Part shown: positions 1 to 41,511 of the stretch, piece by piece
Layout of the letters: each line of letters opens with the position of its first letter
Position numbering within the stretch: position 1 is the first letter of the stretch
Assembly (NCBI RefSeq): GCF_000703085.1
Contig: NZ_JNLL01000002.1
Span: 1-64,000, forward strand
DNA: 64,000 nt
Direction of reading: 5' to 3'
DNA from: Persephonella sp. KM09-Lau-8
GTDB taxonomy: Bacteria > Aquificota > Aquificia > Aquificales > Hydrogenothermaceae
Notes under the pieces: generated by a model
The model's database searches: none
Seen by the model: only the letters and a program-made list of their open reading frames with translations
What the model was told of the DNA's origin: nothing
Program-made: the position numbers and the translations under genes

Positions 1-1
1 A

Positions 2-292
2 TCCGGACAAGATCAGATTGACAAAGAACACATAACAATAGCAACAATACACTCAGCAAAGGGTCTGGAGTTCCCTGTAGTATTCATTCCTGCACTGGAA
101 GAAGGAATCCTTCCCTCCGGAACAGATATTCATGAAGAATTAAGGGTTCTATACGTAGCAATTACAAGAGCTAAAGACCTTCTGTTTCTTTCTGCCGCAA
201 AATATAGAAAAGGATTTGACGGAATACCCCAAAAAACAAAGCCGTCAAGGTTCCTAAAAAACATCACAAAAGTTTATAAAACAAAAGTCTAG
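2..292 (+). CDS. UvrD/PcrA-like DNA helicase, C-terminal fragment
   Basis: This is the end of a gene that starts upstream of the window; 96 codons remain. It is a superfamily 1 ATP-dependent DNA helicase of the UvrD/Rep/PcrA type. The fragment shows the motif V block TIHSAKGLEFPVVFIP followed by GILP, and the motif VI block ELRVLYVAITRAKD, in the usual order and spacing. Such enzymes unwind DNA in repair, replication restart and plasmid replication. The reading frame is intact to a TAG stop. The next gene's ribosome binding site lies only 15 bases further on, so the two are probably co-transcribed. Confidence 0.9.
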   Translation, partial: SGQDQIDKEHITIATIHSAKGLEFPVVFIPALEEGILPSGTDIHEELRVLYVAITRAKDLLFLSAAKYRKGFDGIPQKTKPSRFLKNITKVYKTKV

Positions 293-318
293 TAAAACAT
301 AAAAAAGGAGGTTAAAAG

Positions 319-845
319 TTGAAAAATATGTCCTAATAAATCAAATCTTAAGAACAATAGAAAAGAAACATATAAAAACTTTTGGGTGGGTAGGAAAAGG
401 AAATCTATCGAAAATATACGGAAAAAATAGCTACATGTTATACGACTCCTTCCCACCTCTTGACATGCAGAACTACCAAGAAAAAGTAACTAACTTAAGA
501 AAGGTGGTGGCCTTCTATTCGGCAATACTCAATACATACGAAGCTATAGAAGAAGCAGAAATAAAGATAGAAACCCCTGACCAATTTAAAAGATTTGCAA
601 GAAGCTACGAAGTTATTTTTGAGCCTTCTCCAAAAGAAGGAGCTCTATGGATAGGAGTTGGTTTTGCAAAAGAAGAACATCCTTATATACAAATCGACAA
701 GCTTATTCAAAAATCAAAAGAAGAAATAAGAAAAACCCTAAACATAATGAAAAAAGCACAAAAAGAAATGCCTGGAGAAATCTGGGAAAAAGTGTTAATC
801 GGATTAAATCATCCCCTCAGCAAAAATTTCACCAAAACAATGTAA
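319..845 (+). pseudogene. Unknown protein, apparent frameshift near its start
   Basis: I do not recognise the family. An open frame runs to 845, but its first ATG at 435 has no ribosome binding site. A good GGAGG at 307-311 stands 7 bases before a TTG at 319, and that frame stops after five codons. Adding one base to the five-A run at 322-326 joins the TTG to the long frame and gives about 175 residues. A single-base loss, real or a sequencing error, is the simplest reading. The protein would be soluble, with a helical C-terminus. It sits at the head of the PRTRC cassette and may belong to it. It shows no JAB metal-binding motif, so it is not the expected deubiquitinase-like PRTRC-A. Confidence 0.5.
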
Positions 846-863
846 GAGAAAAATTTCTCTTAC
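842..863. repeat. 22-bp perfect palindrome, family A copy 1
   Basis: Arms GTAAGAGAAA and TTTCTCTTAC flank a two-base centre. It overlaps the TAA stop of the preceding gene and ends just before the ribosome binding site of the next. The same palindrome recurs at 9927 and 10832 next to parA and parB, and as a close variant at 31290. It could be a parS-like partition site, an operator or an RNA hairpin. It lacks a T tract, which argues against a simple terminator. Confidence 0.85.
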
Positions 864-874
864 TGGAGGAAAAA

Positions 875-1114
875 ATGGCTGTAATAACAATTTTTGACCT
901 TGCTAAACTTGGAATCAACTACCCTAAATGTCCTGCATGCTCATATGAATCATCAATATTTCTAACAGCTGAAGATCCAACTGAGGACATTATTGAAATC
1001 TTTAAGAAGGATGAACTGGAAAAACTTGAAACACCCCCTATATGTAACAACTGCTTCTGTGAAATTTTAAACGAAAACAAAAGTTATAAATTCAAATACT
1101 TTACAAGGAGGTAA
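875..1114 (+). CDS. Small zinc-ribbon protein (79 aa)
   Basis: The start is the ATG at 875, preceded by GGAGG at 866-870. The protein has two CxxC pairs, CPAC near residue 19 and CNNC near residue 60, about 40 residues apart, as in a zinc ribbon. The family is not recognised. It ends just before the ubiquitin-like PRTRC gene and its stop overlaps that gene's ribosome binding site, so they form one operon. A role as an adaptor or nucleic-acid-binding partner of the cassette is only inference. Confidence 0.75.
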   Translation: MAVITIFDLAKLGINYPKCPACSYESSIFLTAEDPTEDIIEIFKKDELEKLETPPICNNCFCEILNENKSYKFKYFTRR

Positions 1115-1117
1115 AAA

Positions 1118-1333
1118 ATGTCATCAAATCCAAAAACAGAAAAAGTAGTAGTTGAATTTAACGGAAAAAAATGGGAGTTTGACTATGCCCCAGACCTTGA
1201 TGAAAAACACTTCAAAAAAATACTTGCTACAGAAGCTCCCGAAATTGTAAATGCAAATGCAAAAACCTCCTACACGGATAACGGAAAAACCAAAGTAATA
1301 AAATTTGAAAAAAGTATAGGGTATAAAGGATGA
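1118..1333 (+). CDS. PRTRC protein C, ubiquitin-like (71 aa)
   Basis: This matches the PRTRC-C / prokaryotic ubiquitin-like family, the small beta-grasp protein of the ParB-related, ThiF-related cassette. It has the family's usual length of about 70 residues, an N-terminal segment VVEFNGKKWEF, a central 'L..ILA...PEIVNA' helix region, and the typical tail in which a hydrophobic strand leads to IGYKG. It ends directly on a Gly, so it could be activated by the E1-like partner without processing. GGAGG lies 6 bases before the ATG. Its last codons overlap the start of the next small gene. What it modifies is not known. Confidence 0.8.
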   Translation: MSSNPKTEKVVVEFNGKKWEFDYAPDLDEKHFKKILATEAPEIVNANAKTSYTDNGKTKVIKFEKSIGYKG

Positions 1334-1559
1334 AGCTAAAAGAAGAAAAGAGCAGTATTCTACTGGAAAGAATTACAGAAATTGAAGAAAAAGCAAAAAC
1401 GTTGAAAATATGCAAATTGAAGAGCTGAAAAAATTCATGGATGAAACACTTCAGCTAATAGAAGACTATAAAACAAACCAGGGAAAAGCAGAAAAACTCA
1501 TAGAATCCATAAAAAACACTCCTCCAGTACCAAACACAAAAATAAGACAATTATTATAA
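1330..1559 (+). pseudogene. Small helical protein, apparent frameshift
   Basis: An ATG at 1330 overlaps the end of the ubiquitin-like gene and opens a Glu/Lys-rich frame that stops after about 33 codons. A second frame with an ATG at 1410 continues the same coiled-coil character for 49 codons to 1559 (MQIEELKKFMDETLQLIEDY...). Adding one base in the A runs at 1388-1408 fuses them into one protein of about 76 residues. The alternative is two overlapping mini-genes. No family is recognised. It lies inside the PRTRC operon. Confidence 0.5.
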
Positions 1560-1569
1560 AGGGCAAGTT

Positions 1570-2754
1570 ATGATAAAAATAAACGAAGATAAAGTATTTA
1601 AGAGGCTTAATCTAATATCCAGCAAATATTTAATAAAATCCCTAGCTAAAAAAAAGCCTCTGGTAATTAAAGATGAAAAAAACAGACTTGAAGAAATTAA
1701 AAAGGTATTAAATCTGCTACAACAAAATGAATACACAATACCCTATCTTTTTAAAACTCTTTTCATAGATGAATATATGGAAATATTCGGCCATTTTTCT
1801 CAGGCTTTCTCTATCCATGAATGTTTTACAAAAGAAGAAAAAGAAATACCTATCCTTGCATTTATGTTAAAAAAAGACTTCATTCCGGTTCCTTCCTTCT
1901 ATCCTATCCTTCAATTAAAATACCCTGAAAGTTTTGCAGTAGCTCTTTATCTTACAGAAATAAATGACTTCACTCAGGAATATATAGATTTGGAATATTA
2001 TGCAGACCCTACAACATATAGAAAATTTAACTTTACATACAGTGCAGTTCCAATATCAGTATTTCTTACTCTTTTTTCCGAATATAACCAGATATATGAT
2101 AACTTTACTTCTCCATATGAAACAATAAAAGCAAGTATATACCCAAGCTACGGGTATAACCATCTGCTTGCCTACGAAGCAAAAAAAATAACTCAAAATT
2201 TCAAAGACAGAAAAGAACTTGCCCAGTTTATAAAAAACGAAAAAAGGGAAATAAAAAATGAGTATTACCTGGAAGAAATATATGAAAACTATTTTCTGGA
2301 AGAACTTTCCCCTTGCGAAATAGAAGCAATATTAATACTGCCCAGAAACATAATATCTATATATACTCTCACAGGAAAGCAACCTAAAGAAACAGTGGCA
2401 GAAATAGTCTACGACACATTCAAAGACAAAACCGATAAAAAAATTCTGGAAAAATTAATAAAGGATGTATTCGAAACAGAAGGTGAATTTAACAGAATAC
2501 ATTTAGAAGCAAAAAAAGTACTGGAAGGAACCCTGGATGCTCCCTCAACAATAACCCTTCTGGAAATTTCCGAAAAAGAAAAAGCAAAAAAGCTAATAAA
2601 TATGTTCAAAAACGGACTTAAAAATCTGGAAGAGTTCAAAGAAATCCAGATAAAAAACGTAAAAAAACACCTTTTTGAAGCCGCTAAAAAACTGGAAAAA
2701 GTTTCAAAAGAAAAAACGGAGAATGAAAAATGGAAAAAAATCTTAGCAGCCTAA
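1570..2754 (+). CDS. Unknown protein in the PRTRC cassette (394 aa)
   Basis: This soluble protein of 394 residues has no motif I recognise. It is rich in aromatic residues in the middle (residues 90-200) and highly charged and helical at the C-terminus (residues 290-394). It lies between the ubiquitin-like gene and the E2-like gene and overlaps the latter by 25 bases, so the two are translationally coupled. The position suits PRTRC protein F or another accessory subunit, but I see no residue signature that proves it. A profile search against the PRTRC E and F families would decide. Confidence 0.7.
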   Translation: MIKINEDKVFKRLNLISSKYLIKSLAKKKPLVIKDEKNRLEEIKKVLNLLQQNEYTIPYLFKTLFIDEYMEIFGHFSQAFSIHECFTKEEKEIPILAFMLKKDFIPVPSFYPILQLKYPESFAVALYLTEINDFTQEYIDLEYYADPTTYRKFNFTYSAVPISVFLTLFSEYNQIYDNFTSPYETIKASIYPSYGYNHLLAYEAKKITQNFKDRKELAQFIKNEKREIKNEYYLEEIYENYFLEELSPCEIEAILILPRNIISIYTLTGKQPKETVAEIVYDTFKDKTDKKILEKLIKDVFETEGEFNRIHLEAKKVLEGTLDAPSTITLLEISEKEKAKKLINMFKNGLKNLEEFKEIQIKNVKKHLFEAAKKLEKVSKEKTENEKWKKILAA

Positions 2755-3431
2755 TAGAAAAACTTGAAAAATCTTTTAACCTTATATCCATATCCGAAAA
2801 ACCTGTAATGAGTATACTAATTTTTAGAGATTCCCCTTTTGTTGCAGTGGTAGATAAAGAAAAAAACCAAAAAAAACTTGTCCTCATAGAAGAACTTGTT
2901 GAAAGCTTTTTAGAAAACTTTGAAGGAAAAAAAGAATCACTAACATTTGTAGAAAAAGGCCTTAGAGCCTACAACAAAAAATTCAAAATATACGAACTTC
3001 CAGAAAAAGAATACACATTGAGCTATTTAAAAGATTCAAAAATAAAGAAAAAAAAGTTTCTGGTTCCAAAAAGAATATGGATAATCCCTGAAAACGTAAA
3101 AAATTTCCATAAAGTATTTGCAATAGAAAAGTGGGAAAAAGAAAATACAATACTCTACCAAATGCCTTTCCCTAACACACATACAAATGGAAATATATGC
3201 TGGGGATTAAACAACAAGAAAACAGAAATCATAAAAAACCCTTACCAAATTGACAAAATATATTTTGAACAATCTGTCTTTACCCAGGATATATCTTCAA
3301 ACCTTGTTTACAAAACCAAAGAAAAAACCTACAACGCAATGGAATTTCTTGAAAATTTCAATAAAGTAAACAACTACAAAAATCTAACCCCAATTGGAAC
3401 ACTCCAAGAAGTTATAAAATTGGAGGATTAA
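2730..3431 (+). CDS. PRTRC protein B, E2-like conjugating protein (233 aa)
   Basis: This is likely the E2/UBC-fold member of the PRTRC cassette (prokaryotic E2 family D). Around residues 146-160 it reads FPNTHTNGNICWGL, close to the HPN...NG.ICL box around the active cysteine of classical E2 enzymes. Cys157 would be the thioester residue. The N-terminal half (1-115) is a mixed alpha/beta region as in PRTRC-B, and the length is normal for that family. It overlaps the upstream gene and is followed one base later by the E1-like gene. Expected role: accept the ubiquitin-like protein from the E1-like protein and pass it to a target. The target is unknown. Confidence 0.75.
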   Translation: MEKNLSSLIEKLEKSFNLISISEKPVMSILIFRDSPFVAVVDKEKNQKKLVLIEELVESFLENFEGKKESLTFVEKGLRAYNKKFKIYELPEKEYTLSYLKDSKIKKKKFLVPKRIWIIPENVKNFHKVFAIEKWEKENTILYQMPFPNTHTNGNICWGLNNKKTEIIKNPYQIDKIYFEQSVFTQDISSNLVYKTKEKTYNAMEFLENFNKVNNYKNLTPIGTLQEVIKLED

Positions 3432-3432
3432 A

Positions 3433-4251
3433 TTGAAATTCTTCATGCCTGAAAAGCCATCATATAAAATAACTCTAATAGGATGTGGTGGAACTGGAGG
3501 ATATATAGCCCAGGCTTTATCCAGAATTGCCTTTGAAAGTGAGAAAGAAATAAATCTGATATTTATAGACGGAGATGCTGTTGAAGAAAAAAATGTAGGA
3601 AGGCAAAATTTTTACTACGCAGAAATCGGAGAAAATAAAGCATCCGTCCTCGCTGAAAGATTTTCCTTTGCATATGGAATAGACATAGAAGTAGTACCTA
3701 AATTTTTAAATAGCACTGAATATCAATTCCTGAAAATCCTTTCCCTTTCGGATATTATCATATCAGCTGTAGACTCTGCAGCTGCAAGAAAAGAAATACA
3801 CGAGTGCTTAGAGGCAATACACACCACAATAAAAAACAGAATTGAAAGAAATTTACCAATTGATGACTTGGGATATATGATATGGATAGATTCAGGAAAC
3901 AATGAATCTTCAGGACAAATACTGATAGGCAACTCATTCGATGAAAAAATAATAAAAATGCAAAAAAACAAAGAATCTTTATCTTTCCTGCCTTATCCTT
4001 CCATTTCTGAACCTGACATAATAAATAAAAAAAAGGAAAAAAAACATTCTCCTCGGATAAGCTGTGCAGAAAGAATTGCATTAAAAGAACAATCAACAAC
4101 AATAAATCTCCTTATGGCTTCAGTAGTCTCATCAATGGTAAACAGCCTTGTAGAAGGAAAAGGAATAGAAAGCTATAAGGTGTTTGTAAATGAAGAAATT
4201 CCGGGGGTGTTCCCGGTTTATGTGTCAGAGGCTTTAAAGAACAAAAGTTAA
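3433..4251 (+). CDS. PRTRC ThiF family protein, E1-like (272 aa)
   Basis: This is a ThiF/MoeB/E1-type adenylating protein. Residues 14-24 hold the Rossmann ATP loop LIGCGGTGGYI. Residues 43-60 read FIDGDAVEEKNVGRQNF, the E1 signature with the Arg and Asn that contact ATP. IISAVDSAAARKEI follows near residue 110, and an IDSGN...GQILIG strand near 150, as in the PRTRC ThiF family. No obvious crossover-loop Cys is seen, as in other short E1-like PRTRC members. The start is a TTG with GGAGG nine bases upstream. It should adenylate the C-terminal Gly of the ubiquitin-like protein encoded at 1118. Confidence 0.85.
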   Translation: MKFFMPEKPSYKITLIGCGGTGGYIAQALSRIAFESEKEINLIFIDGDAVEEKNVGRQNFYYAEIGENKASVLAERFSFAYGIDIEVVPKFLNSTEYQFLKILSLSDIIISAVDSAAARKEIHECLEAIHTTIKNRIERNLPIDDLGYMIWIDSGNNESSGQILIGNSFDEKIIKMQKNKESLSFLPYPSISEPDIINKKKEKKHSPRISCAERIALKEQSTTINLLMASVVSSMVNSLVEGKGIESYKVFVNEEIPGVFPVYVSEALKNKS

Positions 4252-4298: not shown

Positions 4299-5051
4299 GT
4301 GAAGCAATACAACTACCCAAACCTTATCAAAGCTTTTGCCCAGCAAAAATTTGGCTATCCAAACGAATACGATGCCTCCCAGATTTTCCTTGATGCCCTG
4401 TTCTTTCTATCCACCGGAGTAAAAAACAAAACACTTGAAAACCTCAAGGAAAAGGAAAAAGAACTCCTTGGAAAAGCAGTCGGTGAATTTCTCGTTGAAG
4501 CATCAAAAGAACCATTCACAGATATACTTGGAGATTACATACTCGAAACAAAATCAAAAAAAGATAAACAATGGAAAGGGCAGTTCTTTACCCCTCAAAC
4601 GGTATGCGATTTTATGGCACAAACAACAGTAGCTGACGTAACTGAGGAAGAAATATTTCAGAGAATAAAAAACGGTAAAAGTTACATGGTAGCCGAACCT
4701 TCAGCAGGTTCAGGAAGAATGATATTATCAGCCGCAAAAGAACTAAAGAAAAAAATTTCATTTGAACTCACAACTTACCTTGAAGTATGGGCAACAGATA
4801 TTGATATCACATGCGTGAAAATGACAGCCATAAATACCGCTATATGGGGAATACCAACAGCAGTAGTCTGGGGAGATGCACTAATACCTAAAGAAACAGA
4901 TAAGGTTTTCTACAACGTACCCTTTGCAGTGCTAAAAAACAACCAGAAAAAAATGAAAAAACTCAAAAAAACAATTGATTCTCTAAAAAAACTACTTGAA
5001 ACAAAACCAGAAGCAGAAGAATCAAAACTCTTATCCCTCTGGGACATTTAA
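4299..5051 (+). CDS. N6-adenine methylase-like protein with degenerate catalytic motif (250 aa)
   Basis: The fold is that of type I/HsdM-like DNA methylases: KGQFFTPQTVCDFM near residue 92, a SAM-binding EPSAGSGRM near 133, and an acidic strand VWATDID near 165. The catalytic motif should read NPPY/F. Here the aligned position near residue 206 reads NVPF, which may weaken or abolish methyl transfer. The C-terminus is short and coiled. The start is a GTG with CGGAG seven bases upstream. A family B inverted repeat lies in its leader. No specificity subunit or restriction gene is nearby, so it may be an orphan regulator or an inactive homologue. Confidence 0.7.
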   Translation: MKQYNYPNLIKAFAQQKFGYPNEYDASQIFLDALFFLSTGVKNKTLENLKEKEKELLGKAVGEFLVEASKEPFTDILGDYILETKSKKDKQWKGQFFTPQTVCDFMAQTTVADVTEEEIFQRIKNGKSYMVAEPSAGSGRMILSAAKELKKKISFELTTYLEVWATDIDITCVKMTAINTAIWGIPTAVVWGDALIPKETDKVFYNVPFAVLKNNQKKMKKLKKTIDSLKKLLETKPEAEESKLLSLWDI

Positions 5052-5086: not shown

Positions 5087-6532
5087 ATGGAAAACTTTAT
5101 TAAAAAACTAAAAAATTTTTACAAAGCAGGATACCCAGTCCTCCTGATACAAACCCACGAAGAAAAAAGATTGGAAGAAAAGATTCTACTCACATTTAAG
5201 AATAAAGAAATCCTATCCTGGGATATGATAAAAGGACTATACAGCCTGAATAAAAACGAAGAAATTGAAAACGTAAAAGATATAATAGAAGCTATCTTAA
5301 AAACAGAAACCCTACCGGATGAATCCATATACATAATAAAGGATCTACACTTTTTCTTTGAAGACGCTGCCGTAGTAAGAGCAATTAAAACAGCATCTGA
5401 AGAAGCAAAAAAGAAAGGAATCACTATACTAATACCTTCTCCAACAGTAAAAATTCCCATTGAACTGGAAAAAGACATAACAGTTCTGGAAATGCCCCTC
5501 CCTACAGAAACAGAAATAGAAAAACTGGCAAAAATGATAGTAAAGGAAAACAACCTTAAAATACAGGTTAAAAAAGAAAACATTATGACAGCAAAAGGCT
5601 TAACAATAAATGAAGCTGAAAACGCAATAGCCCTATCCATAATAATGAAACACAACATAGATAAACACATACTTGAAGAACAAAAACTCCAGGCAGTCAA
5701 AAAATCTGGATTACTGGAGATATATAAACCTGTAAATCCCGACGAAATAGGAGGACTTGAAAACCTAAAAACATACATAAAAAATAGAAAAAAGGGATTT
5801 GAAAACCTAAATCTTCCTACACCAAAAGGAATACTCCTTACAGGAATACCTGGAACTGGAAAATCTTTATCAGCAAAAGCTACCGCATCTATACTAGGAT
5901 TCCCTCTTGTTAAACTCGACATATCAGGACTAAAGAGCTCTTTGGTGGGAGAATCTGAAGCAAAACTAAGAGAAGCATTAAAACTTATAGACGCTATAGC
6001 TCCGGTAGTGGTATGGATTGACGAAATAGAAAAAGCCCTCGGAGGAGTTCTCTCATCAAATAGAACAGATGGAGGAACAACTGCCTCAATGTTTGGATAT
6101 CTACTCACCTGGATGCAGGAGTCAGAAACTCCTAAATACATAGTAGCAACATCAAATGACATAGAGGAACTCCTCCAAATATCGCACGGAGCATTAATAA
6201 GAAGGTTTGATGATGTATTCTTCGTAGACATACCTGACCTGCAAGAAAGAAAAGAAATAATAAAAATAATGAACAGGAAATACAACGCACAAATACCGGA
6301 AGAGATGGCAGAAAAAATGGAAAACTGGACAGGAGCTGAAATAGAAAAATTCGTAATATCATCCCTCTATGATGGAATAGATGAAGCTCTCAAATCAATA
6401 AAACCAATATATCTTCAAAACAAAGAAAAAATAGAAAAACTCAAAAAATGGGCAAAAGATAATGCCAGAATTGCAAACAAAAAAACAAAAGTTTCTAAAA
6501 CAACAAGAAAAATAGATTTAGACATCATATAG
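5087..6532 (+). CDS. Ycf46-like AAA ATPase, paralogue 1 (481 aa)
   Basis: This is an AAA+ ATPase of the Ycf46 type. Residues 1-200 form an N-terminal domain starting with a strand PVLLIQTHEEKR. The ATPase domain has Walker A GIPGTGKS at about 253-260, LVGESEAKLREAL near 290, Walker B VVWIDEIEK near 307 and a DGGTTASMFGYLLTWMQE segment. The usual 'PPELLRKGRFDE' stretch is replaced by LLQISHGALIRRFDD, so the arginine-finger region is altered although RRF remains. GGAGG lies 8 bases upstream, and a CCAAAAGTT motif precedes that. A paralogue is at 18196. It sits directly before the clamp-like gene, which may hint at a DNA-linked role. Confidence 0.85.
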   Translation: MENFIKKLKNFYKAGYPVLLIQTHEEKRLEEKILLTFKNKEILSWDMIKGLYSLNKNEEIENVKDIIEAILKTETLPDESIYIIKDLHFFFEDAAVVRAIKTASEEAKKKGITILIPSPTVKIPIELEKDITVLEMPLPTETEIEKLAKMIVKENNLKIQVKKENIMTAKGLTINEAENAIALSIIMKHNIDKHILEEQKLQAVKKSGLLEIYKPVNPDEIGGLENLKTYIKNRKKGFENLNLPTPKGILLTGIPGTGKSLSAKATASILGFPLVKLDISGLKSSLVGESEAKLREALKLIDAIAPVVVWIDEIEKALGGVLSSNRTDGGTTASMFGYLLTWMQESETPKYIVATSNDIEELLQISHGALIRRFDDVFFVDIPDLQERKEIIKIMNRKYNAQIPEEMAEKMENWTGAEIEKFVISSLYDGIDEALKSIKPIYLQNKEKIEKLKKWAKDNARIANKKTKVSKTTRKIDLDII

Positions 6533-6543
6533 GAGGAACTAAA

Positions 6544-7707
6544 ATGGCAGTAAAAGAAACGTTACAGCTTGAAATTTCAGGAAAAAACATTCAAAAACCT
6601 CTATTACTTGCAACACTTTTCACAGGCACAAAAGAAGAAACCTTCAAAGAACTGTTTAAAGACATAATCATCTCCGTTCTACCTAACAAGGAAATAGGAG
6701 TAATAAAAGCAACAACCGGAAGAGAATATATCAAAATCTCATTCAAAATAGAAGAACCGGTTGATGAAAAAATAGATATCAGAATAGGAGCTGACCAGGT
6801 AAAAAGATTAAGCTCCATTCTCGAAAACTTCAAACTGGAAGTAAACGAGAAAAACTACATCGTAAAATCAAAGAAAACAAAAATAAATCTTGCAAAGCTT
6901 CCCCCTCAACCTCTTATAGAACAAATGGAATTCCTGAATGTTAAGGAATCTGAATCCCAAAAAATAACAAAAATAGAAGGACAAAAACTGTATGACTTAC
7001 TCAAAAACATCTACACAATCGCAGAACAAGACCCTATTAGAATAACATTTGCAAAACAAAATATAACAGTCCAATCAGTAAATTCCGCTAAATCCCTTGC
7101 CTGTATAAATGAAGAACCTCTCCCATGTAAAAAAGAAACAACAATATTTCTGCCAAAAACCTCAACACAAAAAATACTAACATTCGCGAAAGCATTCAAA
7201 GAAAAAAATATTGAAATTCTACTGTCTAAAGATAATACCAAACTAATACTTATGAGCCCAATATCAATGCTAATCGTATTCCTCGAAGCTGAAGGAACAC
7301 CAGATGCTTCAAGCCTGGCTAAATCCATAGATGCTCAACAAGATGAAACAATAATAGCAAAAGCAAAAGACATAATGAAAGCAATCGAACTTATAAAAAC
7401 AGTAGATCCATCAGCAACTGTCACAACAGAAATACAAATAGAAAACGGAAAAATAAAAATGAAGACAGTGGGCTCAGAAATAGGAATAGTAGAAGAAGAA
7501 ATAGAAGTCATACAACAAAACAATCAAAAGTTAGAATTATACTTCTCACCTAAGCTCCTTGAAAAAAGCATAACAACTATCACAGAAAACCTGGAAGAAA
7601 ACATAATTATAAAAATAAAGGACATAAAAGAAAAAGGTGGAATATTCCTGGTATCAAAAGAAGAAAATGAAGACCTAAAAACTATATTTGCAGGAATTAC
7701 AAGATAA
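6544..7707 (+). CDS. Divergent DnaN-like sliding-clamp protein (387 aa)
   Basis: The length and general layout of this protein fit a bacterial beta clamp made of three repeated domains. The clearest part is the last third, residues 285-387. There a strand pattern EIQIENGKIKMKTVGSEIGIVEEEIEV is followed by a FSPKLLEKSI helix and ENIIIKIKD, as in DnaN domain 3. An acidic region before it, residues 190-250, resembles domain 2 (IFLPKTSTQKILTFAKAFKEKNIEILL). Similarity is weak, so a structure model is needed. If right, it would be an element-encoded processivity factor. GGAGG lies eight bases before the ATG, and it is co-oriented with the AAA ATPase upstream. Confidence 0.55.
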   Translation: MAVKETLQLEISGKNIQKPLLLATLFTGTKEETFKELFKDIIISVLPNKEIGVIKATTGREYIKISFKIEEPVDEKIDIRIGADQVKRLSSILENFKLEVNEKNYIVKSKKTKINLAKLPPQPLIEQMEFLNVKESESQKITKIEGQKLYDLLKNIYTIAEQDPIRITFAKQNITVQSVNSAKSLACINEEPLPCKKETTIFLPKTSTQKILTFAKAFKEKNIEILLSKDNTKLILMSPISMLIVFLEAEGTPDASSLAKSIDAQQDETIIAKAKDIMKAIELIKTVDPSATVTTEIQIENGKIKMKTVGSEIGIVEEEIEVIQQNNQKLELYFSPKLLEKSITTITENLEENIIIKIKDIKEKGGIFLVSKEENEDLKTIFAGITR

Positions 7708-10007: not shown

Positions 10008-10835
10008 ATGGGAAAAATAATAGGAGTAGCAAACATAAAAGGCGGAGTAGGAAAAACTTCACTAACAAACGCCCTTGCTCATGAGCTCTCAAACATGGGA
10101 AAAAAAGTCCTAGTTATAGATGCAGACCCTCAAGCATCTCAAACATATCTATTTGGCATAGATCAGGACGAAATTCTTGAAGAAAAATATGAAAAACACT
10201 CAATTTTGAATATATACCAAAACAAAGAATGTGTCCCCTTCGAATACAATCAAAACCTTCACGTAATATTCTCATCCAGAATACTGCAAGAATCAACAGA
10301 AAGTAGGATTAAACCGGGATTAGAACTGGTGCTTAACAGATGGCTTATAAAAAATAAAGTAAGAGAAAATTACGACTTTACACTCATAGATCCCCCCTCA
10401 AACAGAGGAGTGCTAATGATTTCAACAATTCTGGCAAGTGACTACGTTCTAATACCTCAAAGGCTTACTCTCTTAGATGAAACAGGAACCGTAGAACTAT
10501 TCCTAGAAATGTCAACGCAAGCAGAACTGAGGGGAAAAGAAATAAAAATACTCGGCCTTGTTCCGGTCTTTTTTGATAAAAGAAGCAAACTATACAGAGA
10601 AAAACTGATAAAACTGAAAGATGAAATTAAGAGTTTCGTTGAAGGTGACGAATTTTTATCTATAGAAAAAGAAGAAGTCTTTTTCAGCCCAATAAGACAA
10701 CTGTCTGTATGGGTAAAAGCACAAGAAGAACAAATTCCTCTCAGAGAGTACATATTAAACAAGGATAGAAGCTACATGTCGGTTTTAGAAGAAGTTAAAA
10801 AAGTAACAATAGAGATTTTAGAAACAGCAAAGTAA
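10008..10835 (+). CDS. parA: ParA-family partition ATPase (275 aa)
   Basis: This is a deviant Walker-type ATPase that drives plasmid or chromosome segregation with ParB. The deviant Walker A KGGVGKT is at residues 11-17 and VIDADPQ at 37-42. A switch region with LIDPPSNRGVLM lies near residue 125. There is no N-terminal DNA-binding extension, so it is the short type, like Soj. The start ATG follows GGGGTG. parB follows 30 bases later. Palindromes of family A flank the gene on both sides, which is where autoregulation or centromere sites are expected. Confidence 0.95.
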   Translation: MGKIIGVANIKGGVGKTSLTNALAHELSNMGKKVLVIDADPQASQTYLFGIDQDEILEEKYEKHSILNIYQNKECVPFEYNQNLHVIFSSRILQESTESRIKPGLELVLNRWLIKNKVRENYDFTLIDPPSNRGVLMISTILASDYVLIPQRLTLLDETGTVELFLEMSTQAELRGKEIKILGLVPVFFDKRSKLYREKLIKLKDEIKSFVEGDEFLSIEKEEVFFSPIRQLSVWVKAQEEQIPLREYILNKDRSYMSVLEEVKKVTIEILETAK

Positions 10836-10853
10836 GAGAAAAATTTCTCTTAA
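10832..10853. repeat. Palindrome, family A copy 3, between parA and parB
   Basis: GTAAGAGAAA, two A bases, then TTTCTCTTAA: the same as copies 1 and 2 except for the last base. It overlaps the parA stop codon and ends six bases before the parB ribosome binding site AGGAGA. Confidence 0.8.
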
Positions 10854-10865
10854 AAGGAGAAGAAA

Positions 10866-11831
10866 ATGGCTCTGTTTAAAAATAAAAAACTATCAGAGAA
10901 AAAAAGAAAAACAATAACAGCCAAAGATGAACTTCTATCAAAAGCAGAAAACATAATTGAGGAATCAAAAAACATAGAACCAACACTAATCAACATTGAA
11001 GAAATTATCCCCCCTAAATTCCATGACAGAACCTATATAGATATAGAAACACTAGAAGAACTTAAAGAAAACATAAAAAAGTTTGGACTAATAGAACCTA
11101 TAGTAGTAAGAAAGAAAAATGGAAAATATGAAAGAATAGCCGGATATAGAAGACTGGAAGCTTTTAAAAAACTATACAAAGAAACAAAAGATGACAGATG
11201 GAAAAAAATACCCGCTGTTATACTGAATGTTGATGACGATACAGCAATAGCAATAATGCTTTCAGAAAACATACACAGAGATAACCTATCAGACTACGAT
11301 AAACTACTGGCAATACTACAGTTAATAGAATTTAAAATGAAAATGTCAGAGGATGATGTCAAAAAATTCCTAAACAAACTAACAAATAAGGAATCAGGCA
11401 GATCAAAAAAAGAAATAACAGAAGAAGAAATAAAACAACTTCAACAACTGGAAAGACTCCTTTCGTACTTCAAAATAAAAAACTGGAAAACATTCAAAAA
11501 AATGCTCTCCCTTCTAGACATACCTGAATATCTAAGACAGATAATAAGGGATACTAAAATACCATATTACATTGCAATAGAACTAAAAAAGCTCAAAAAC
11601 GAAAAATTAGTCAGAAAAATTGTAGAAAAAATAAAACAAGAAAACTTAACCTACGAAGAAATAAAACAGCTAATAAAACAATACAGAAAAGAAGAGATAA
11701 AAGAAAACTCCTTCCCCTACAAGTCAATAAATAAATCCCTAAGGCAAAAATGGAAAAAGCTGCCTGAAGATAAAAAAAGACAAATAGATAAACTAATGAA
11801 AGAAATAGAACAAATTCTAAAATCGGCATAA
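10866..11831 (+). CDS. parB: ParB-family partition DNA-binding protein (321 aa)
   Basis: This is the centromere-binding partner of ParA. The N-terminal ParB/Srx domain runs from about residue 40 and includes the GYRRLEA box at 93-99 and ENIHRDNLS at 134-142, the CTP-binding and switch motifs. A helix-turn-helix region follows (residues 145-245). The C-terminus is Lys-rich and helical, as expected for dimerisation. It is the second gene of the parAB pair. The family A palindromes are the natural candidates for its binding site, but this is inference. Confidence 0.93.
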   Translation: MALFKNKKLSEKKRKTITAKDELLSKAENIIEESKNIEPTLINIEEIIPPKFHDRTYIDIETLEELKENIKKFGLIEPIVVRKKNGKYERIAGYRRLEAFKKLYKETKDDRWKKIPAVILNVDDDTAIAIMLSENIHRDNLSDYDKLLAILQLIEFKMKMSEDDVKKFLNKLTNKESGRSKKEITEEEIKQLQQLERLLSYFKIKNWKTFKKMLSLLDIPEYLRQIIRDTKIPYYIAIELKKLKNEKLVRKIVEKIKQENLTYEEIKQLIKQYRKEEIKENSFPYKSINKSLRQKWKKLPEDKKRQIDKLMKEIEQILKSA

Positions 11832-11943: not shown

Positions 11944-14900
11944 ATGAAAACAGAACACCAGCTTAATACAAAAATCGACAACGCAATCAAAGTAATAAAA
12001 GAAGAAAAAAAAGAACTTCAAAAACTATTAAGAGAAATAGAAAAAAAGGGTTTAATTACAACGGAAAAAATAAAACAGGAAAACAAGAAAATATCAAACC
12101 CCCAAATGCTTCATGACATCAGATTCAACAAAAGTATAAGGAGAATAAAAGAAAATACCGAATTCATCACAGAATTTAGACAAAAAAACCTATTTACACC
12201 TCATTTTCTAAACTTGTCTGCAATCCCTGTAAACCTCGGTTTAAATAAAAAACAAGAAATAAAAAAACAAATAGAAAACAAAAAAATATGGAATGTAGAC
12301 AATGAAAGCTTCTTACTACAACCATTCAAAGAAGAAATAAAGAAAAAAATAAAAAATAAAATAAAAACAAAAGCACATAAAATAAAAGAATTCCTGAAAA
12401 TCCTTGAAAACGAGATATACGACGTTATTAAAGAAGGAGGAGAAACAAAAAAAGTATTAAATGAAAAAGGAAAATTCTGGAGTCTTGCAATAACACTAAC
12501 ACCAGATAAAGAAGAACTTAAAAACATCCTTGAAATCTTAGTAACAACAGACTTTCAAAAAGTAAAAAATGAAGACCCTAAAACATTTAAAAAGATAGAA
12601 GAAGAATTCGGAAAAAAAACAGCAACAACCCTCCTCAAACACATAAAACTCTTTAAAGAAATTGACACAGAAAACCTAAACCTGATACAGCCAATAAAAA
12701 CATCTATTGTTTTATTTAATCAATATCTATCAAAAATAGAAAGGGAAACTTTAAAAGAATTCTATAAAGAAGAAAACTTCAACGATAAATACATAGAATT
12801 TCTTCAGGAAATAAAAGATATAAAGAAATACTTCAACTTAAGAGCAGACCTCACAGACGCCCAAAAAATACTTACATTCTCTTTTATCCAGGAAGTCAAA
12901 GAACACATAAGAACTTCAAAGAAGATACAACCTATAACCTTGATGAATACTTCTGAAGTCGGAACAGGAAAAACATTTACAATACCCTTCGTAACACTGG
13001 CTCTTGCCGTAGAATACCTGAAAAAATACAACAAAAAATCAACTTTCCTAATAATAACAGAAGCAAACCTGCTTCTTGAAACCAAACAAAAACTAATCAA
13101 AGAAGTAGGACTAAAGAAATACATGGTAGAAATAATAGAAAACAACAATCTCCTAACCTTTTCTCCAAAGCCCTGGAAGTACTACCTTATATCCAAAAAC
13201 AGAATATCAAAACTAGAAAAGGATACAGTAAAAGCATTTGCAAAACTTCTAAAAAACAAAGGTCTATTAATACATACAATACTGGATGAATCCTCTTATC
13301 TGAAGAATACAACATCCATAACATCAATAGCATACAAAAACCTGAAGTCTAAACTAACAAAAGAAAAAGTAATGGGATTCGAAATGCAAATGAGTGCAAC
13401 ACCAATATCAAACGACACATCAGACGCAATATACTGCGTAAACCCAAATAAAATAGTTCTGAAAAAACTGGGAAAACAAGGGCTATCCTCCTTAAATCTT
13501 TACTATAAAAATGACTTTGAGTGGGAAGAACTCACTCTAAGGGAAACCCTCAAACTTGCATCTTTATCACAGGACTGTCTCGTAAAAACAAAAAGAAAAA
13601 CCGCAACAGAACCAAAAGCAGCTGCACTTCTCTGCATGAACAGTGTAATGTTCCCGGTAATACCTAAAGAAAAGGAAGAAGAGAAAAAAGAAAAAAATAA
13701 CGAAAAGAAAAAAGAAGAACCTACACAAACCCAGCTCCAAGCATCAAAACTGGGAATATCCCTGGCAAGAAAAAAGAATGAATTAATGCACAGCGGAACA
13801 AAATCTAAAAAGGCACTGGTAGAAGCAGTAGCATCTGCAACAAAACTATCAAACTTCAAAGGAATAGACAGAATCCTAAATACAAACATAGACACCTCAG
13901 TTCAAACCAATGCCATAGTTTTAAAAACAAACATCTTAGAAGCAGCTACTTTCCACGAAATAATAGTAAACTCCAGAATAACAGCAAACTTCCAAAAATT
14001 CGGATTCCTGTCAAAACTCTTAAGACAGCTCCAGGTAGAAATTCCTACAGTGGAAGAAGAAAAAAAAGAAATAAGAAAATTTTTACTTATGCAAATACTA
14101 TATGACCTTGAAAAAATAAAAGTAACTACAAACAAAAAAAGAGACAAAAACTCAATGGAAATATACACCATAGATAAAAAAGAGTTCATCAAAGCAATAA
14201 AAGAAATCTTATCTTCAGATAATATAGAAGAGTTTATAATAAAAGAAATAGATCCTGCAATATATCTAAAAACCACCAATCTTGAAAATCAATTGAAATC
14301 AAACATCAACAATAAAACAAAGAAAGAAATAGAAAACCAGCTAAAAAAACTAAAAGAAACAAAAAAAGAATTAATAGAAACCATAATGCCTATAAACGAA
14401 ACAAATCTAAAAAAAGTAATCTCTGAAGACCTAAAAGAAATAAGAGCAGAAAAAAGAGAGAAAATAAAAATAAAACCTCTATCTCTACACTCATACAAAA
14501 ACTTTATAGAAAAGATAGAAATAGATTTAAAATCTGAAACAAAACTTGAAATACCTCTTAAAAACCCTACTATACACCAGCAAATATTCAACGAAGCCGA
14601 AGGAGATTTAACAGTGTATTCTGCACTATTTCAGGCATCTGAAAACCTGGAACTCCCAATAATATCAAAACACTTGAAAAGAGCAGCAAGAAAAATAAAA
14701 AACATACTGGAAGAAAATGGAATATCGGTAAAGGACTACAATATCGATGAAATGGTAAAGATAATAACAGAAAAAGGTTCAACCACAATAAATACAATAA
14801 GAGAAACAAAAAGATTTGCAAACAGCCACAATATACCAATACTAGCAGTAACCTCCTACAAAAACACCGTAGAAAAGTTGAAAAACGACAATGACATGAT

Positions 14901-15552
14901 AATAACAGGACAAGTTAAACAGGAAAAAAGAAAAAATATAATAGACCAGTCAAATAAGATAGAAAACAATAAAAATGTCATAGCAACAGCCCAATCAATA
15001 CTAAAAGGAATAAGCTTATACTACCTTCCATACGGGATAATGCCCGAAACACCTAAAAATGCAGAATTTAGAACACAAATAGCAGGAAGACTCAGAAACC
15101 TGTTTGAACATCACATACAAACGGTAAAAACCGCAAAAAAAGACCCTGACAAACAAAAACACTTGAAAATACTAGAAAAAAATCAAAAATTCTTTGACAT
15201 AATATCAACAGAAGTAATGCTCGCCTTCCCTTCTATACAACAAAGTAAAAACATATTAATAGAAATGACCAAATTTGCATCCCAGCATCAAGAAATAACC
15301 GGAATAGAAATGGAAGACTCTATATCTGAGTCTGACCACAACGACAAATACACTTTCAAAAAACACCAGGTAGAAAAATTCTCAGAAGAAATAGCAAAGA
15401 GAAAGGTAAAAGAAATAATAAAAATCCTTAATGGAAAAACGGAAATAACGTTTGAGGAACTAAAAACAGCAATAGATAAACACATAAAACAAACAACAGA
15501 AAAAAACTTGAAAAAAACAACAATATATCACTTAATAAAAGAAAAAGAATAA
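11944..15552 (+). CDS. Very large SF2 (SNF2/DEAD-like) helicase (1202 aa)
   Basis: This is a superfamily 2 helicase or translocase. Walker A EVGTGKT is at about 338-344, a DExx motif LDESSY near 447, motif III MSATPIS near 484, and motif VI QIAGRLRNL near 1045. The ATPase core is split by a long insertion (residues 550-970) full of charged coiled coil. The N-terminal 320 residues are also helical and have no known domain. It is much longer than usual helicases and resembles proteins of large plasmids and phages. GGAGA precedes the ATG. It ends at a strong terminator. Confidence 0.85.
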   Translation: MKTEHQLNTKIDNAIKVIKEEKKELQKLLREIEKKGLITTEKIKQENKKISNPQMLHDIRFNKSIRRIKENTEFITEFRQKNLFTPHFLNLSAIPVNLGLNKKQEIKKQIENKKIWNVDNESFLLQPFKEEIKKKIKNKIKTKAHKIKEFLKILENEIYDVIKEGGETKKVLNEKGKFWSLAITLTPDKEELKNILEILVTTDFQKVKNEDPKTFKKIEEEFGKKTATTLLKHIKLFKEIDTENLNLIQPIKTSIVLFNQYLSKIERETLKEFYKEENFNDKYIEFLQEIKDIKKYFNLRADLTDAQKILTFSFIQEVKEHIRTSKKIQPITLMNTSEVGTGKTFTIPFVTLALAVEYLKKYNKKSTFLIITEANLLLETKQKLIKEVGLKKYMVEIIENNNLLTFSPKPWKYYLISKNRISKLEKDTVKAFAKLLKNKGLLIHTILDESSYLKNTTSITSIAYKNLKSKLTKEKVMGFEMQMSATPISNDTSDAIYCVNPNKIVLKKLGKQGLSSLNLYYKNDFEWEELTLRETLKLASLSQDCLVKTKRKTATEPKAAALLCMNSVMFPVIPKEKEEEKKEKNNEKKKEEPTQTQLQASKLGISLARKKNELMHSGTKSKKALVEAVASATKLSNFKGIDRILNTNIDTSVQTNAIVLKTNILEAATFHEIIVNSRITANFQKFGFLSKLLRQLQVEIPTVEEEKKEIRKFLLMQILYDLEKIKVTTNKKRDKNSMEIYTIDKKEFIKAIKEILSSDNIEEFIIKEIDPAIYLKTTNLENQLKSNINNKTKKEIENQLKKLKETKKELIETIMPINETNLKKVISEDLKEIRAEKREKIKIKPLSLHSYKNFIEKIEIDLKSETKLEIPLKNPTIHQQIFNEAEGDLTVYSALFQASENLELPIISKHLKRAARKIKNILEENGISVKDYNIDEMVKIITEKGSTTINTIRETKRFANSHNIPILAVTSYKNTVEKLKNDNDMIITGQVKQEKRKNIIDQSNKIENNKNVIATAQSILKGISLYYLPYGIMPETPKNAEFRTQIAGRLRNLFEHHIQTVKTAKKDPDKQKHLKILEKNQKFFDIISTEVMLAFPSIQQSKNILIEMTKFASQHQEITGIEMEDSISESDHNDKYTFKKHQVEKFSEEIAKRKVKEIIKILNGKTEITFEELKTAIDKHIKQTTEKNLKKTTIYHLIKEKE

Positions 15553-16156: not shown

Positions 16157-16546
16157 ATGAAAAATTTTAAAAATGAACTGAAAGATATTGAGAATAAGTT
16201 ATTCAAAGAAATAAAAAAGCTAATAGACAAAGAAAACATAATAAAACCAGAATATGCGGAACTCCTGAAACAAAAAAGAGTTCTAGAAGAAATAAAAATA
16301 TACAAATCAACTTACAAAAAGAAGGTTGAAATAAAGGGAAAAAAATATGAATACAAACCTCTGCAGCTGCACGCAATCCTGAAAAAATCAGAAAAAACAA
16401 TAACAATAGCTCACGTTCAAAGCAGAAAAAGTAAAGAAAAATTAAACAGGCTATATAAGCTCATTCGGGCTTACCAGACTATCAGGAGAGTAGAAAAGGA
16501 ATTGAAAGAGGTAGAGAACATCAAAAAACTACTCAAAGAGGTTTGA
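16157..16546 (+). CDS. Unknown coiled-coil protein (129 aa)
   Basis: This small protein is Lys/Glu-rich and predicted almost wholly helical. It has a central basic segment YKPLQLHAILKKSEKTITIAHVQSRKSKEKL. No family is recognised. It starts behind AAAGGGG, preceded by a CAAAAGTT motif, and its end runs into the inverted repeat in the sigma factor gene's leader. A regulator of that sigma factor is possible but is guesswork from position. Confidence 0.65.
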   Translation: MKNFKNELKDIENKLFKEIKKLIDKENIIKPEYAELLKQKRVLEEIKIYKSTYKKKVEIKGKKYEYKPLQLHAILKKSEKTITIAHVQSRKSKEKLNRLYKLIRAYQTIRRVEKELKEVENIKKLLKEV

Positions 16547-16565
16547 TTTCTAAACAAAAATCAAA
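16542..16565. repeat. 24-bp inverted repeat, family B copy 2
   Basis: TTTGATTT, an 8-base spacer and AAATCAAA. It overlaps the stop of the preceding gene and lies just before the ribosome binding site of the sigma factor gene. Confidence 0.8.
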
Positions 16566-16581
16566 AAAAGGAAGGAAAAGC

Positions 16582-17292
16582 ATGAGCCAAACAAAAACCC
16601 CAACCCACCTCCCCTTTGCAATCTTTTTCACCCAAAAAATAATCCAAAAAAATCCCGCCCTAGAACCATACAGAGAAGACTTGATATCTGCAGCAATCGT
16701 TGGATTAATTGAAGCAGAAAAAAAATTTGATCCCTCCAAAGGAACCAAATTTACAACTTTTGCTGTGTACCACATAAAAAATAGAGTTTACGAAGAAATA
16801 ACAAACATTACAACAAAAGGATTAAAAAAATCCCAACCTTTAGTCGTAAAAGAATCAAAAATAAGAAAAGAACTTAAAAAAAATAAAAATGCAAGCTATG
16901 CAGAAATAAGCCAAAAAACTGATATAAAAGAAAAAAAAGTAAAACAGATAATAGAAGAAAAAAAGACCACCGTAAGCATAGAGGACTACATAGGAGAAGA
17001 TCTCCAAATAAAAGATACCTTGGGCACAGACCCAACAACAAATATGGAAAAAGAACTTGATTTACAAAAATTACAAAAGTTAATAAAAAAAGCAGTCTCA
17101 AAACTTAATGAAAAAGAAAGAAAGATCATAAAAGAAAGATACTTAAAAGAAAACAAAACCTTAAGAGAAATCGGAGAAGAAATGGGTATCTCAAAAGAAA
17201 GAGTTAGACAAATAGAAAAAAATGCTCTGGAAAAAATGAAAAGATTCATGGTCAAAAACAAGGTGGATGTAAACGATTTTATTTACTTTTGA
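16582..17292 (+). CDS. Sigma-70-family RNA polymerase sigma factor (236 aa)
   Basis: Region 2 is seen at about residues 30-75 (DLISAAIVGLIEAEKKFDPSKGTKFTTFAVYHIKNRVYEEI, split here for reading), a region 3-like helical part with SIEDYIGEDLQIKD near 135, and region 4 at about 175-225 with LREIGEEMGISKERVRQIEKNALEKM. I take the ATG at 16582 behind GGAAGGA; an upstream ATG at 16543 would include the inverted repeat. The size and region order suit a group 3 or alternative sigma. It suggests the element has its own promoter class. Confidence 0.92.
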   Translation: MSQTKTPTHLPFAIFFTQKIIQKNPALEPYREDLISAAIVGLIEAEKKFDPSKGTKFTTFAVYHIKNRVYEEITNITTKGLKKSQPLVVKESKIRKELKKNKNASYAEISQKTDIKEKKVKQIIEEKKTTVSIEDYIGEDLQIKDTLGTDPTTNMEKELDLQKLQKLIKKAVSKLNEKERKIIKERYLKENKTLREIGEEMGISKERVRQIEKNALEKMKRFMVKNKVDVNDFIYF

Positions 17293-18195: not shown

Positions 18196-19658
18196 ATGAA
18201 CCTCAGAAATCTCTTTAAATCAAACATACCAATTATATGGATTGAAACACACGAATACGAAAGAGCAAAAAAAGAAGTTGAAAAAATCGCATCTGAAGAA
18301 GGAAAAGATATAAGAACCTGGACAATAACAAAAGGAATACAAGGAGAAAACTTAAAACCCAAAGAAGAAGGATTTCTCAAACCAGAAGAAGAACCTTATG
18401 ACACACCTGAAGTTCCTCTAAACTATATAACCAACCCCGAAATAAACTCAACAACCTTGATAGTAATGGACTTCCACAGATTTCTGGATTCTGCAGAAAT
18501 CCTCAGAAAAATGCTTGATGTATACGAAGAAGCAAGAAAAAACTTTAACCAACTAATAATAATATCCCCTGTAACAGATATTCCAACTGAAATAGAAAAA
18601 TACGTAACCTTAATAGAACTCCCTCTCCCTGACCAAGAAACACTAAAAGAAACCCTTGAAAAAATAGTGTCCGACCACGAAGGACTCCTTGATGAAAAAT
18701 GGGAAAAACAATTCTGGACAAACCCCAACATAACAAAAGAAATATGCAGAGCTGCCTCGGGACTCACACTTAACGAGTTTGAAAATGCAGTAACACTATC
18801 AATAGCATCAAAAAACAAAATAGACATAAAGGATATATTTGAACAGAAAAAACAAATGATTCTTAAAACAGCAGGACTCCAAATCTTCGACCCAAAAGAA
18901 ATAGACGAAGTAAAAGGGCTTGACAGAGCAAAAGAATACATAACCAAAGCAATAAAATCCGGCCTCGGAAAAGGGTCTCTACTTGTCGGAATACCGGGAA
19001 CAGGAAAATCTCTTCTGGCTAAACAGGTAGGCAGAATAACAGGACTTCCAACAATCATACTTGACCTTGGAATGATTTTTGGATCACTTGTTGGGGAATC
19101 AGAGAGAAGAATATCCCATGCACTCAAAACTGTCGAAGCAATGGCTCCCTGCATCCTCTTCATCGACGAACTTGAAAAAGGGATTTCAGGAATTAACTCA
19201 TCCGCTATGACTGACGGTGGAACAGGCTCAAGAGTCTTCGGAAAATTTCTCACATGGTTAAATGACAAGAATTCAGGAGTCTACGTAATAGCCACAGCGA
19301 ACGACCTATCCTTAATACCCCCGAATTCTTAAGAAGCGGCAGATGGGACTGGATATTTTTCGTTGACACCCCAGACGAAGAAACAACCCAGGAAATACTC
19401 AAATACTACTGTGAAAAATACTCTATAGAATATGAACCAATAGACCTTAAAGACTACACAGGTGCAGAAATAAAGGCAATAGTAGAAAACGCAAAAATAC
19501 TTGGATGCAGCCTGCAAGAAGCCAAAAATTCAGTGATAAATATTGCAAAAAGTAGAAAACAAGAAATAGAAAATATGAGAAAAGAAGCCAAGGAAAAATA
19601 CATCCCCGCAACATACCCCAAAAAAGCAAAGAAACAATACAGAAAAATAAAAGCCTAA
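18196..19658 (+). pseudogene. Ycf46-like AAA ATPase, paralogue 2, frameshifted
   Basis: This is homologous along its length to the intact gene at 5087. Walker A GIPGTGKS is at about 265-272, LVGESERRISHAL follows, Walker B CILFIDELEK is near 319 and DGGTGSRVFGKFLTWL after it. The frame stops at 19332 inside the segment that should read IPPEFLRSGRWDW. Adding one C to the five-C run at 19318-19322 restores EFLRSGRWDWIFFVDTPDEE and carries the frame to 19656. The full protein would have about 487 residues, close to 481 for the paralogue. Unlike the paralogue, it keeps the canonical LRSGR arginine-finger region. Confidence 0.85.
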
Positions 19659-33237: not shown

Positions 33238-33247
33238 AGGAAAAACA

Positions 33248-40306: not shown

Positions 40307-40314
40307 GAGAAAAA

Positions 40315-41475: not shown

Positions 41476-41511
41476 AAAACCAAAAATCCAATAAAAAAGG
41501 AGGAAACAAAC

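Follow-up and report, generated by a model that had tools for sequence, protein, structure and literature searches.

Known systems and a JAB-less relative in Persephonella

Adenylation of the C-terminal glycine of a ubiquitin-like protein (Ubl) by ThiF/E1 enzymes, thioester transfer from E1 to E2, and cleavage of Ubl precursors by JAMM proteases are established for the protein families concerned. Such components are found in PRTRC cassettes (TIGR03734-TIGR03742; e.g. on the Manganitrophus plasmid CP114559, locus L021), which take their name from the ParB. Plasmids and phages from a wide range of phyla carry cassettes of this type, and no experimental study of them was found in the literature searched. 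JAMM/JAB cleavage of Ubl precursors was proposed for such operons by Iyer et al. 2006, whose operon type 6d comprises a Ubl, a JAB, an E1, an E2, and an alpha-helical protein, and who report a conserved histidine C-terminal to the E2 cysteine (PMC1779556). The Bil operon, whose E1 has a cysteine domain of 80 amino acids (aa) and whose JAB processes BilA (PMC11354881), and CBASS Cap2/Cap3 have the bacterial Ubl/E1/E2 logic in common with the locus described here, while the families differ. This locus lies in Persephonella sp. KM09-Lau-8, within a stretch of 64,000 nucleotides that forms the start of contig NZ_JNLL01000002.1 (C2; positions 1 to 64,000, hereafter the window). Judged by its sequence, the cassette is a JAB-less, pre-matured variant of PRTRC and of Iyer type 6d. 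An earlier note on this DNA had assigned it to PRTRC, and Ubl, E2-like protein, and ThiF are indeed related to PRTRC families; we nevertheless treat it as a divergent relative and not as a PRTRC member because the tested components miss the curated NCBIfam equivalog cut-offs and PRTRC_A, PRTRC_E, and PRTRC_F were not found by profile search.

Seven co-directional genes make up the cassette (window positions 319-4251), with gaps of no more than ~30 bases and several overlaps:

319-845, plus strand: X1, 175 aa, TTG start, first gene of the operon, function not assigned
875-1114, plus strand: CxxC...CxxC protein, zinc-ribbon-like, 79 aa (CPAC...CNNC)
1118-1333, plus strand: Ubl, PRTRC_C-like, 71 aa, ending ..SIGYKG, encoded in mature form
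1328-1333, plus strand: GGATGA junction, glycine codon GGA and stop TGA, overlapping the ATG of X2
1330-1559, plus strand: X2, 76 aa, helical, candidate detached tail of a Ubl precursor
1570-2754, plus strand: 394-aa protein occupying the PRTRC_F position, between Ubl and E2
2730-3431, plus strand: E2-like protein, PRTRC_B / Prok-E2_D, 233 aa, Cys157 codon at 3198-3200
3433-4251, plus strand: ThiF/E1 adenylyltransferase, PRTRC_ThiF, candidate thioester Cys211 codon at 4063-4065

These coordinates agree with the overlapping and abutting arrangement that the earlier note had described. Among the embedded genes it had listed, the small CxxC protein stands, whereas the operon begins earlier, with X1, and contains the additional small gene X2.

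With the PRTRC cassette of L021, the window shares the order of Ubl, E2-like, and ThiF genes, their orientation and abutting arrangement, a ParB nearby, and a large helicase-like protein, but it is devoid of the PRTRC_A JAB, its Ubl is tail-less, its scores stay below the cut-offs, and F and E are not recognisable. Compared to Iyer type 6d, a Ubl with C-terminal glycine, an E1, and an E2 are likewise united in one operon in a mobile element setting, and an extra protein takes the position of the helical protein; the JAB and the histidine after the E2 cysteine (here FTQD) are missing, however, and X1, X2, and the CxxC gene are added. The order of the window is also that of JAB-less Anaerolineae cassettes (e.g. 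L055, L087, L113), namely Ubl (bare GRKG), small protein ending xPxP..., F, E2, and ThiF, although F is recognisable there, the upstream gene differs, and their X2 is weakly similar to that of the window. The AAAGGATGA junction and the split tail gene recur in Oscillatoriales L082 and L086, whereas F and E are present in these cassettes and their close relatives L077, L079, and L083 still have a JAB.

With moderate confidence, we read the operon as a self-contained Ubl conjugation relay that is JAB-less and pre-matured, its Ubl tail having been split off at the glycine. ThiF/E1 would adenylate the C-terminal glycine of the Ubl with ATP and then accept the Ubl on Cys211, from where the E2-like protein would take it onto Cys157 and hand it on to a target. 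In related cassettes, the Ubl is made as a precursor with a tail that the JAB metalloprotease PRTRC_A must remove by a cut after the glycine. The window cassette has no such JAB, and its Ubl gene directly encodes the mature form. We think it most likely that a stop codon arose at precisely this glycine and divided the ancestral fusion, whose tail persists as the next gene, X2. The overlapping stop and start codons could couple translation of Ubl and X2 and hold the two near 1:1, the proportion that a cleaved fusion would yield. We infer the thioester relay, Ubl conjugation, and translational coupling from this gene set.

Identity and folds of Ubl, E2, and E1

Relatives had to be reached through ThiF because the window E2 is too divergent for direct search: used as a query, it returned no relatives by tblastn among plasmids or by back-translated patterns among viral contigs. 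In this way, 160 loci were gathered, to which the window, L034 (another genome from this family), and reference plasmids were added. The gathered loci served to derive search profiles of JAB, E2, Ubl, ThiF, and F, which were then searched.

A small protein ending in glycine and resembling ubiquitin, as claimed in the earlier note, is borne out by the match of the Ubl to PRTRC_C (TIGR03738, E 1e-4), which reaches the final model position (66/66), albeit at 22.3 bits and thus under the curated cut-off of 45.95. Matches were also obtained with Prok_Ub (E 0.055) and with a hidden Markov model of the Ubl family (E 1.4e-15), and the orthologue in L034 (62% identical) likewise ends in GYKG. The E2-like protein exceeds the cut-off of Prok-E2_D (PF14460, E 2e-11, 44.3 bits vs 25) and falls below that of PRTRC_B (TIGR03737, E 5e-8, 32.6 bits vs 131.45); its proposed catalytic residue Cys157, which the earlier note had singled out, is invariant in 151/151 relatives. 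ThiF matches PF00899 (E 1e-17) and, over its full length, PRTRC_ThiF (TIGR03736, E 9e-38), where its 130 bits are under the cut-off of 144.75, as are those of the clear PRTRC relative L069 (140.8 bits). The GxGGxG loop, D46, R57, K69, D114, and C211 are essentially invariant across 170 relatives, in line with the ATP loop noticed before, and the candidate thioester Cys211 is kept in 164/164 scored ThiF relatives.

Structure predictions point in the same direction. The model of the window E2 (predicted local distance difference test, pLDDT, 87.4; predicted template modelling score, pTM, 0.76) has a ubiquitin-conjugating (UBC) fold around the cysteine: the first 12 rows of a second-look structural aligner were all E2/UBC proteins (Z 5.2-3.7), with UBE2S on top (Z 5.2 over 114 residues) and UBE2D2, Ubc13, Rad6-type proteins, and Cdc34 among them. 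A natural homologue of the window Ubl was predicted as a beta-grasp, with many ubiquitin/ISG15 rows at Z 4-4.5. Foldseek against the PDB gave no significant match for either the E2 model or the model of the Ubl homologue; both fold assignments, UBC and beta-grasp, draw on the second-look aligner together with the sequence families. The conjugation reading, which the earlier note had made dependent on these two folds, thereby survives.

The Ubl and ThiF might instead form a sulfur-carrier pair (ThiS/MoaD/CysO-like, with a thiocarboxylate at the glycine) to which the E2-like protein would merely be a non-catalytic partner. Such a pair would fit a ThiF-type E1 without a separate catalytic-cysteine domain, the strong ThiF/MoeB matches over its adenylation half, and the glycine end of the Ubl. 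We consider it very improbable since the E2-like cysteine is invariant (151/151), E2-like protein and ThiF share a cassette in nearly all complete loci, and the cassette contains no sulfurtransferase.

Loss of the JAB coincides with a bare terminal glycine

The absence of a JAB from the window, stated in the earlier note, extends for PRTRC_A to the entire genome, including the remainder of the plasmid and the chromosome: the one match of TIGR03735 genome-wide was weak and partial (E 0.1, C2:127101-127187). Nor did anything in the genome match a profile made from twelve genuine PRTRC_A proteins. In relatives, PRTRC_A proteins retain the complete JAMM motif (E...HSH...S..D). We also considered a JAB hidden in the gap between the E2 (PRTRC_B) and ThiF genes of JAB-less cassettes, which was ruled out as these two genes mostly overlap by 4 bases, leaving no space for a remnant, and a lax JAB search of the cassettes had no match. 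A location of PRTRC_A elsewhere was ruled out by whole-genome searches of 18 genomes holding JAB-less cassettes, where it was found in none, as opposed to 4/4 control genomes.

Among 121 cassettes having Ubl, E2, and ThiF, 84 also have a JAB; in 74 of these the Ubl is extended by a C-terminal tail, and in the other 10 it is tail-less. Not a single tail was found in the 37 cassettes without JAB, where the Ubl stops at the terminal glycine in 37/37 (L139 was scored by hand, its profile alignment falling two residues short of the glycine). This agrees with the suggestion of the earlier note that a glycine end needs no JAB for activation. A bare glycine is found as well in JAB-less types that diverge too far to have entered the counted set (..KTNG in L116, ..DKG in L141, L142, and L148), and in L186 and L188 the likely Ubl just before ThiF ends in ..HKKG; in the latter two, which are phage-type (L186:7603-7992, L188:7672-7992), this Ubl is likely N-terminally extended, with the E2 ~0.8 kb downstream and no JAB. 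A maximum-likelihood test favoured dependent over independent change of tail and JAB (likelihood ratio 29.9, 4 degrees of freedom, p 5e-6), although correlated-change tests of this kind tend to be liberal if few changes have occurred. Comparison of independent pairs showed the tail changing the same way as the JAB or not differing in nearly all cases, with opposite changes averaging 0.0.

That JABs process bacterial Ubls had been predicted in 2006; the tail/JAB rule is the new element here. The rule was not found in the literature searched, which did not reach all key papers, so that an earlier notice is possible; publications naming 'PRTRC' appeared, by title and abstract, to be incidental mentions or promoter names, in one instance the trc promoter. 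The rule provides natural-experiment evidence that PRTRC_A acts by cutting after GxKG, pins down where the Ubl is matured, and illustrates how a modifier can pass from protease dependence to a protease-free state. The thermophile version represents a minimal, probably heat-stable E1-E2-Ubl set that lends itself to purification and testing without a protease step.

Further arrangements were encountered among the surveyed loci. In two large phages, Bacillus phage KLEB27-3 (L024:700-1449) and an IMG/VR contig (L170:3592-4698), tandem poly-Ubl genes with each repeat ending in GxKG adjoin JAB, E2, and ThiF, resembling a polyubiquitin-like precursor. The PRTRC cassette of a Stanieria plasmid (L019, 1682-8825) is split by other genes, has transposase genes just upstream, and is probably dead; neither Ubl nor JAB was found in it.

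Fission of the tail and the nature of X2

The tail of cyanobacterial and Chloroflexi cassettes and of related IMG/VR contigs measures ~80 aa, ends in xPxP..(I/V)xGF, and is predicted as a helical hairpin (pLDDT ~95) behind a flexible GxKG linker, with the Ubl part as a beta-grasp. Within Oscillatoriales, the states of this tail form a stepwise series: it is fused to the Ubl in L069, where a JAB is present; it is split off with 2 residues remaining after the glycine and the JAB kept in L077, L079, and L083; and it is split off with the Ubl stopping at the glycine and the JAB lost in L082 and L086, whose separate tail gene is clearly a homologue of the fused form (hhalign 98.75%). JAB-retaining splits were also seen in the proteobacterial-type prophage contigs L169 and L182, and no JAB-less cassette with a fused tail was observed among those surveyed. 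Because split-tail cassettes with a JAB exist, fission can precede JAB loss. In L131 (4020-4714) and L146 (4087-4805), a Ubl with an unrelated-looking extension is accompanied by an overlapping separate tail open reading frame (ORF), which may reflect frameshifts or a further arrangement.

The junction between Ubl stop and X2 start in the window is the same AAAGGATGA junction as in Planktothrix L082 and L086, and both the position of X2 and its PVP ending agree with the tail. An X2 orthologue is present in L034 (L034:1308-1523), which was the best match of the fused-tail profile against 21,415 ORFs beyond fused and evident split tails (E 0.006). After iteration over the same ORFs, the tail profile recovered the window X2 at E 0.007, the second iteration having taken in one unrelated coiled coil. 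Alignment of the tail with the window X2 by hhalign scored 27.0, compared to 8.8+-1.7 on average and 14.4 at maximum for 60 column shuffles and 8.4 for a reversed profile; the Anaerolineae X2 reached 21.2 (shuffles: mean 9.7, maximum 14.3). That an X2-type gene is the tail is evident in cyanobacteria and likely for the window, where such scores make us fairly confident of the identification and no more than that because short helical proteins readily give false matches. We see about an even chance that gene fission at the terminal glycine replaces proteolytic maturation, with a stop codon, in some cassettes merged with the following start as GGATGA, standing in for the JAB, and that the tail, once released, is retained as a conserved component and not thrown away as a propeptide; it might act as an adaptor or E3-like factor produced in step with the modifier. 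Its retention suggests a role of its own, and the separate tail protein is a candidate functional partner that is easily missed if taken for a propeptide.

Arguments against a JAB-free relay

Several points weigh against the interpretation given above. JAB changes on the E2+ThiF tree are few (at least 7), the pairs test is under-powered as 5-7 pairs cannot reach significance, and there are the 10 JAB-bearing cassettes with a bare-glycine Ubl. Because the JAB persists in these, it probably serves a second function, deconjugation, and disappears only in some cases; with such a role suggested, JAB-less systems may be irreversible or reliant on a host JAB. The window E2 carries FTQD (Q-D) where many relatives have a histidine after Cys157, a residue that is not absolute since only 54 of ~150 aligned relatives possess it. 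The evidence relating the window X2 to the tail is a set of weak profile scores between short helical proteins; in the same tail search, E 0.008 was reached by an unrelated coiled coil (L018:1375-2022), and the X2 of L034 does not adjoin the Ubl. Moreover, the chromosome encodes an unrelated Prok-JAB (C1:858090-858452, E 1.5e-26, 147 aa), the only true JAB of this genome.

This chromosomal Prok-JAB might trim or deconjugate in trans, so that the conjugation cassette would still be JAB-dependent and X2 an unrelated small protein, to which its modest scores against the tail would be well suited. We regard this as quite unlikely. A chromosomal Prok-JAB is present in 11/13 same-genus entries (the window genome and 10/12 relatives), and because most of these relatives carry it while none has the E2, it is taken as a housekeeping gene. 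Furthermore, no trimming is needed because the Ubl already ends in glycine; deconjugation in trans may still occur.

Replicon, assembly, and accessory genes

The complete genome (2.07 Mb, G+C ~31%) consists of two contigs, of which C2 comprises 163,841 bp. Its last 2,710 bp (C2:161132-163841; L018:17132-19841) repeat window positions 1-2706, and because of this repeat C2 is a circular second replicon of ~161.1 kb with an uncollapsed overlap, either a plasmid or a phage-plasmid. Between the two copies there are 15 differences, all single-base indels and nearly all in homopolymer runs. The frames of X1 (one A missing near 322-326) and X2 (one A missing near 1387) are broken in the window copy and intact in the contig-end copy. 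As the far end has both frames whole and L034 has intact counterparts, the two frameshifts are assembly errors at the contig end; genuine or programmed frameshifting was thereby ruled out.

The two broken frames, together with the missing PRTRC_A, E, and F, would also be expected of a decaying remnant that has lost JAB, PRTRC_F, and PRTRC_E and retains two pseudogenes. With the frameshifts missing from the redundant contig end, where the differences are homopolymer indels, and the same JAB-less core set kept in L034 (39-62% identity for Ubl, E2, and E1), we find this hardly credible. L034 and the window genome are the only ones with the E2 among 136 genomes of the phylum, and L034 has a gene order of its own for X1, X2, Ubl, E2, ThiF, and a protein of 411 aa.

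The only relative of X1 in the related loci is its L034 orthologue (32% over 151 aa, E 5e-26), and comparison of X1 with PRTRC_E gave no support for an equivalence. Neither a family match nor a relative in ~160 PRTRC loci was found for the 79-aa CxxC protein. The 394-aa protein matches its 411-aa counterpart in L034 weakly (43% over 42 aa, E 0.005) and has no family match; with a non-significant hhalign comparison to F families, its homology to PRTRC_F is not demonstrable.

Plasmid neighbourhood and possible purpose

Downstream of the cassette, the following genes bear on its setting:

4299-5051, plus strand: N6-adenine-methyltransferase-like protein (PF02384, E 2.5e-11)
5087-6532, plus strand: AAA ATPase (PF00004, E 7e-22)
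10008-11831, plus strand: ParA and ParB partition pair (AAA_31, E 8e-31; ParB_N, E 3e-17)
11944-15552, plus strand: helicase-like protein, 1202 aa

A close relative of the methyltransferase stands beside a PRTRC cassette (L096:3326-4105, E 7.5e-88 after iteration), and tblastn relatives of the AAA ATPase occur on Manganitrophus, cyanobacterial, and Thermovibrio plasmids. The ParB-family protein, 6.6 kb downstream of the cassette, scored 59.6 bits against the PRTRC ParB (TIGR03734, cut-off 278.6), while the helicase-like protein has its relative in the large protein that immediately follows the PRTRC cassette on Manganitrophus plasmids (L021, L099, L100). A PRTRC_D-like actin-fold match was detected at a distant site of this plasmid (C2:82669-83568, E 6e-19, 67.6 bits vs a cut-off of 214.8). 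The plasmid setting suggests that the cassette serves plasmid or phage-plasmid biology.

The same chemistry could also be used for anti-phage or anti-plasmid defence, as in CBASS Cap2 or Bil-like systems, and not for plasmid replication or partition. Phage defence is the reported role of those bacterial E1/E2/Ubl systems that have been examined to date, Bil among them. The E1/E2/Ubl system of CBASS acts in phage defence (PMC10097602), and the neighbouring methyltransferase resembles restriction methylases. Still, we judge a defence purpose unlikely: defence-system models recovered only generic E1, methyltransferase, and AAA similarity in the window, with PADLOC models matching neither Ubl nor E2 and the ThiF matches amounting to generic E1 similarity, the neighbours are ParA/ParB, a sliding clamp, and the helicase-like protein, and phages too carry such cassettes.

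The clamp gene (6544-7707), a divergent DNA polymerase III beta clamp, is flanked by the AAA ATPase and an uncharacterised gene. A second AAA ATPase gene (18196-19332) is related to the one at 5087-6532; its ORF stops within the AAA domain (profile position 116 of 131) and is possibly truncated or affected by an assembly frameshift. Elsewhere in the window, we noted a sigma-70-family factor with regions 2, 3, and 4 (16543-17292), a minus-strand TnpB/OrfB-type gene (29616-30923), a protein of 542 aa that weakly matches a Cas12f-like TNB (25741-27369), a PAPS-reductase-domain protein (33212-34042), and, consecutively at 39332-42495, a TelA-like protein, an uncharacterised gene, and an SPFH/Band-7 protein.

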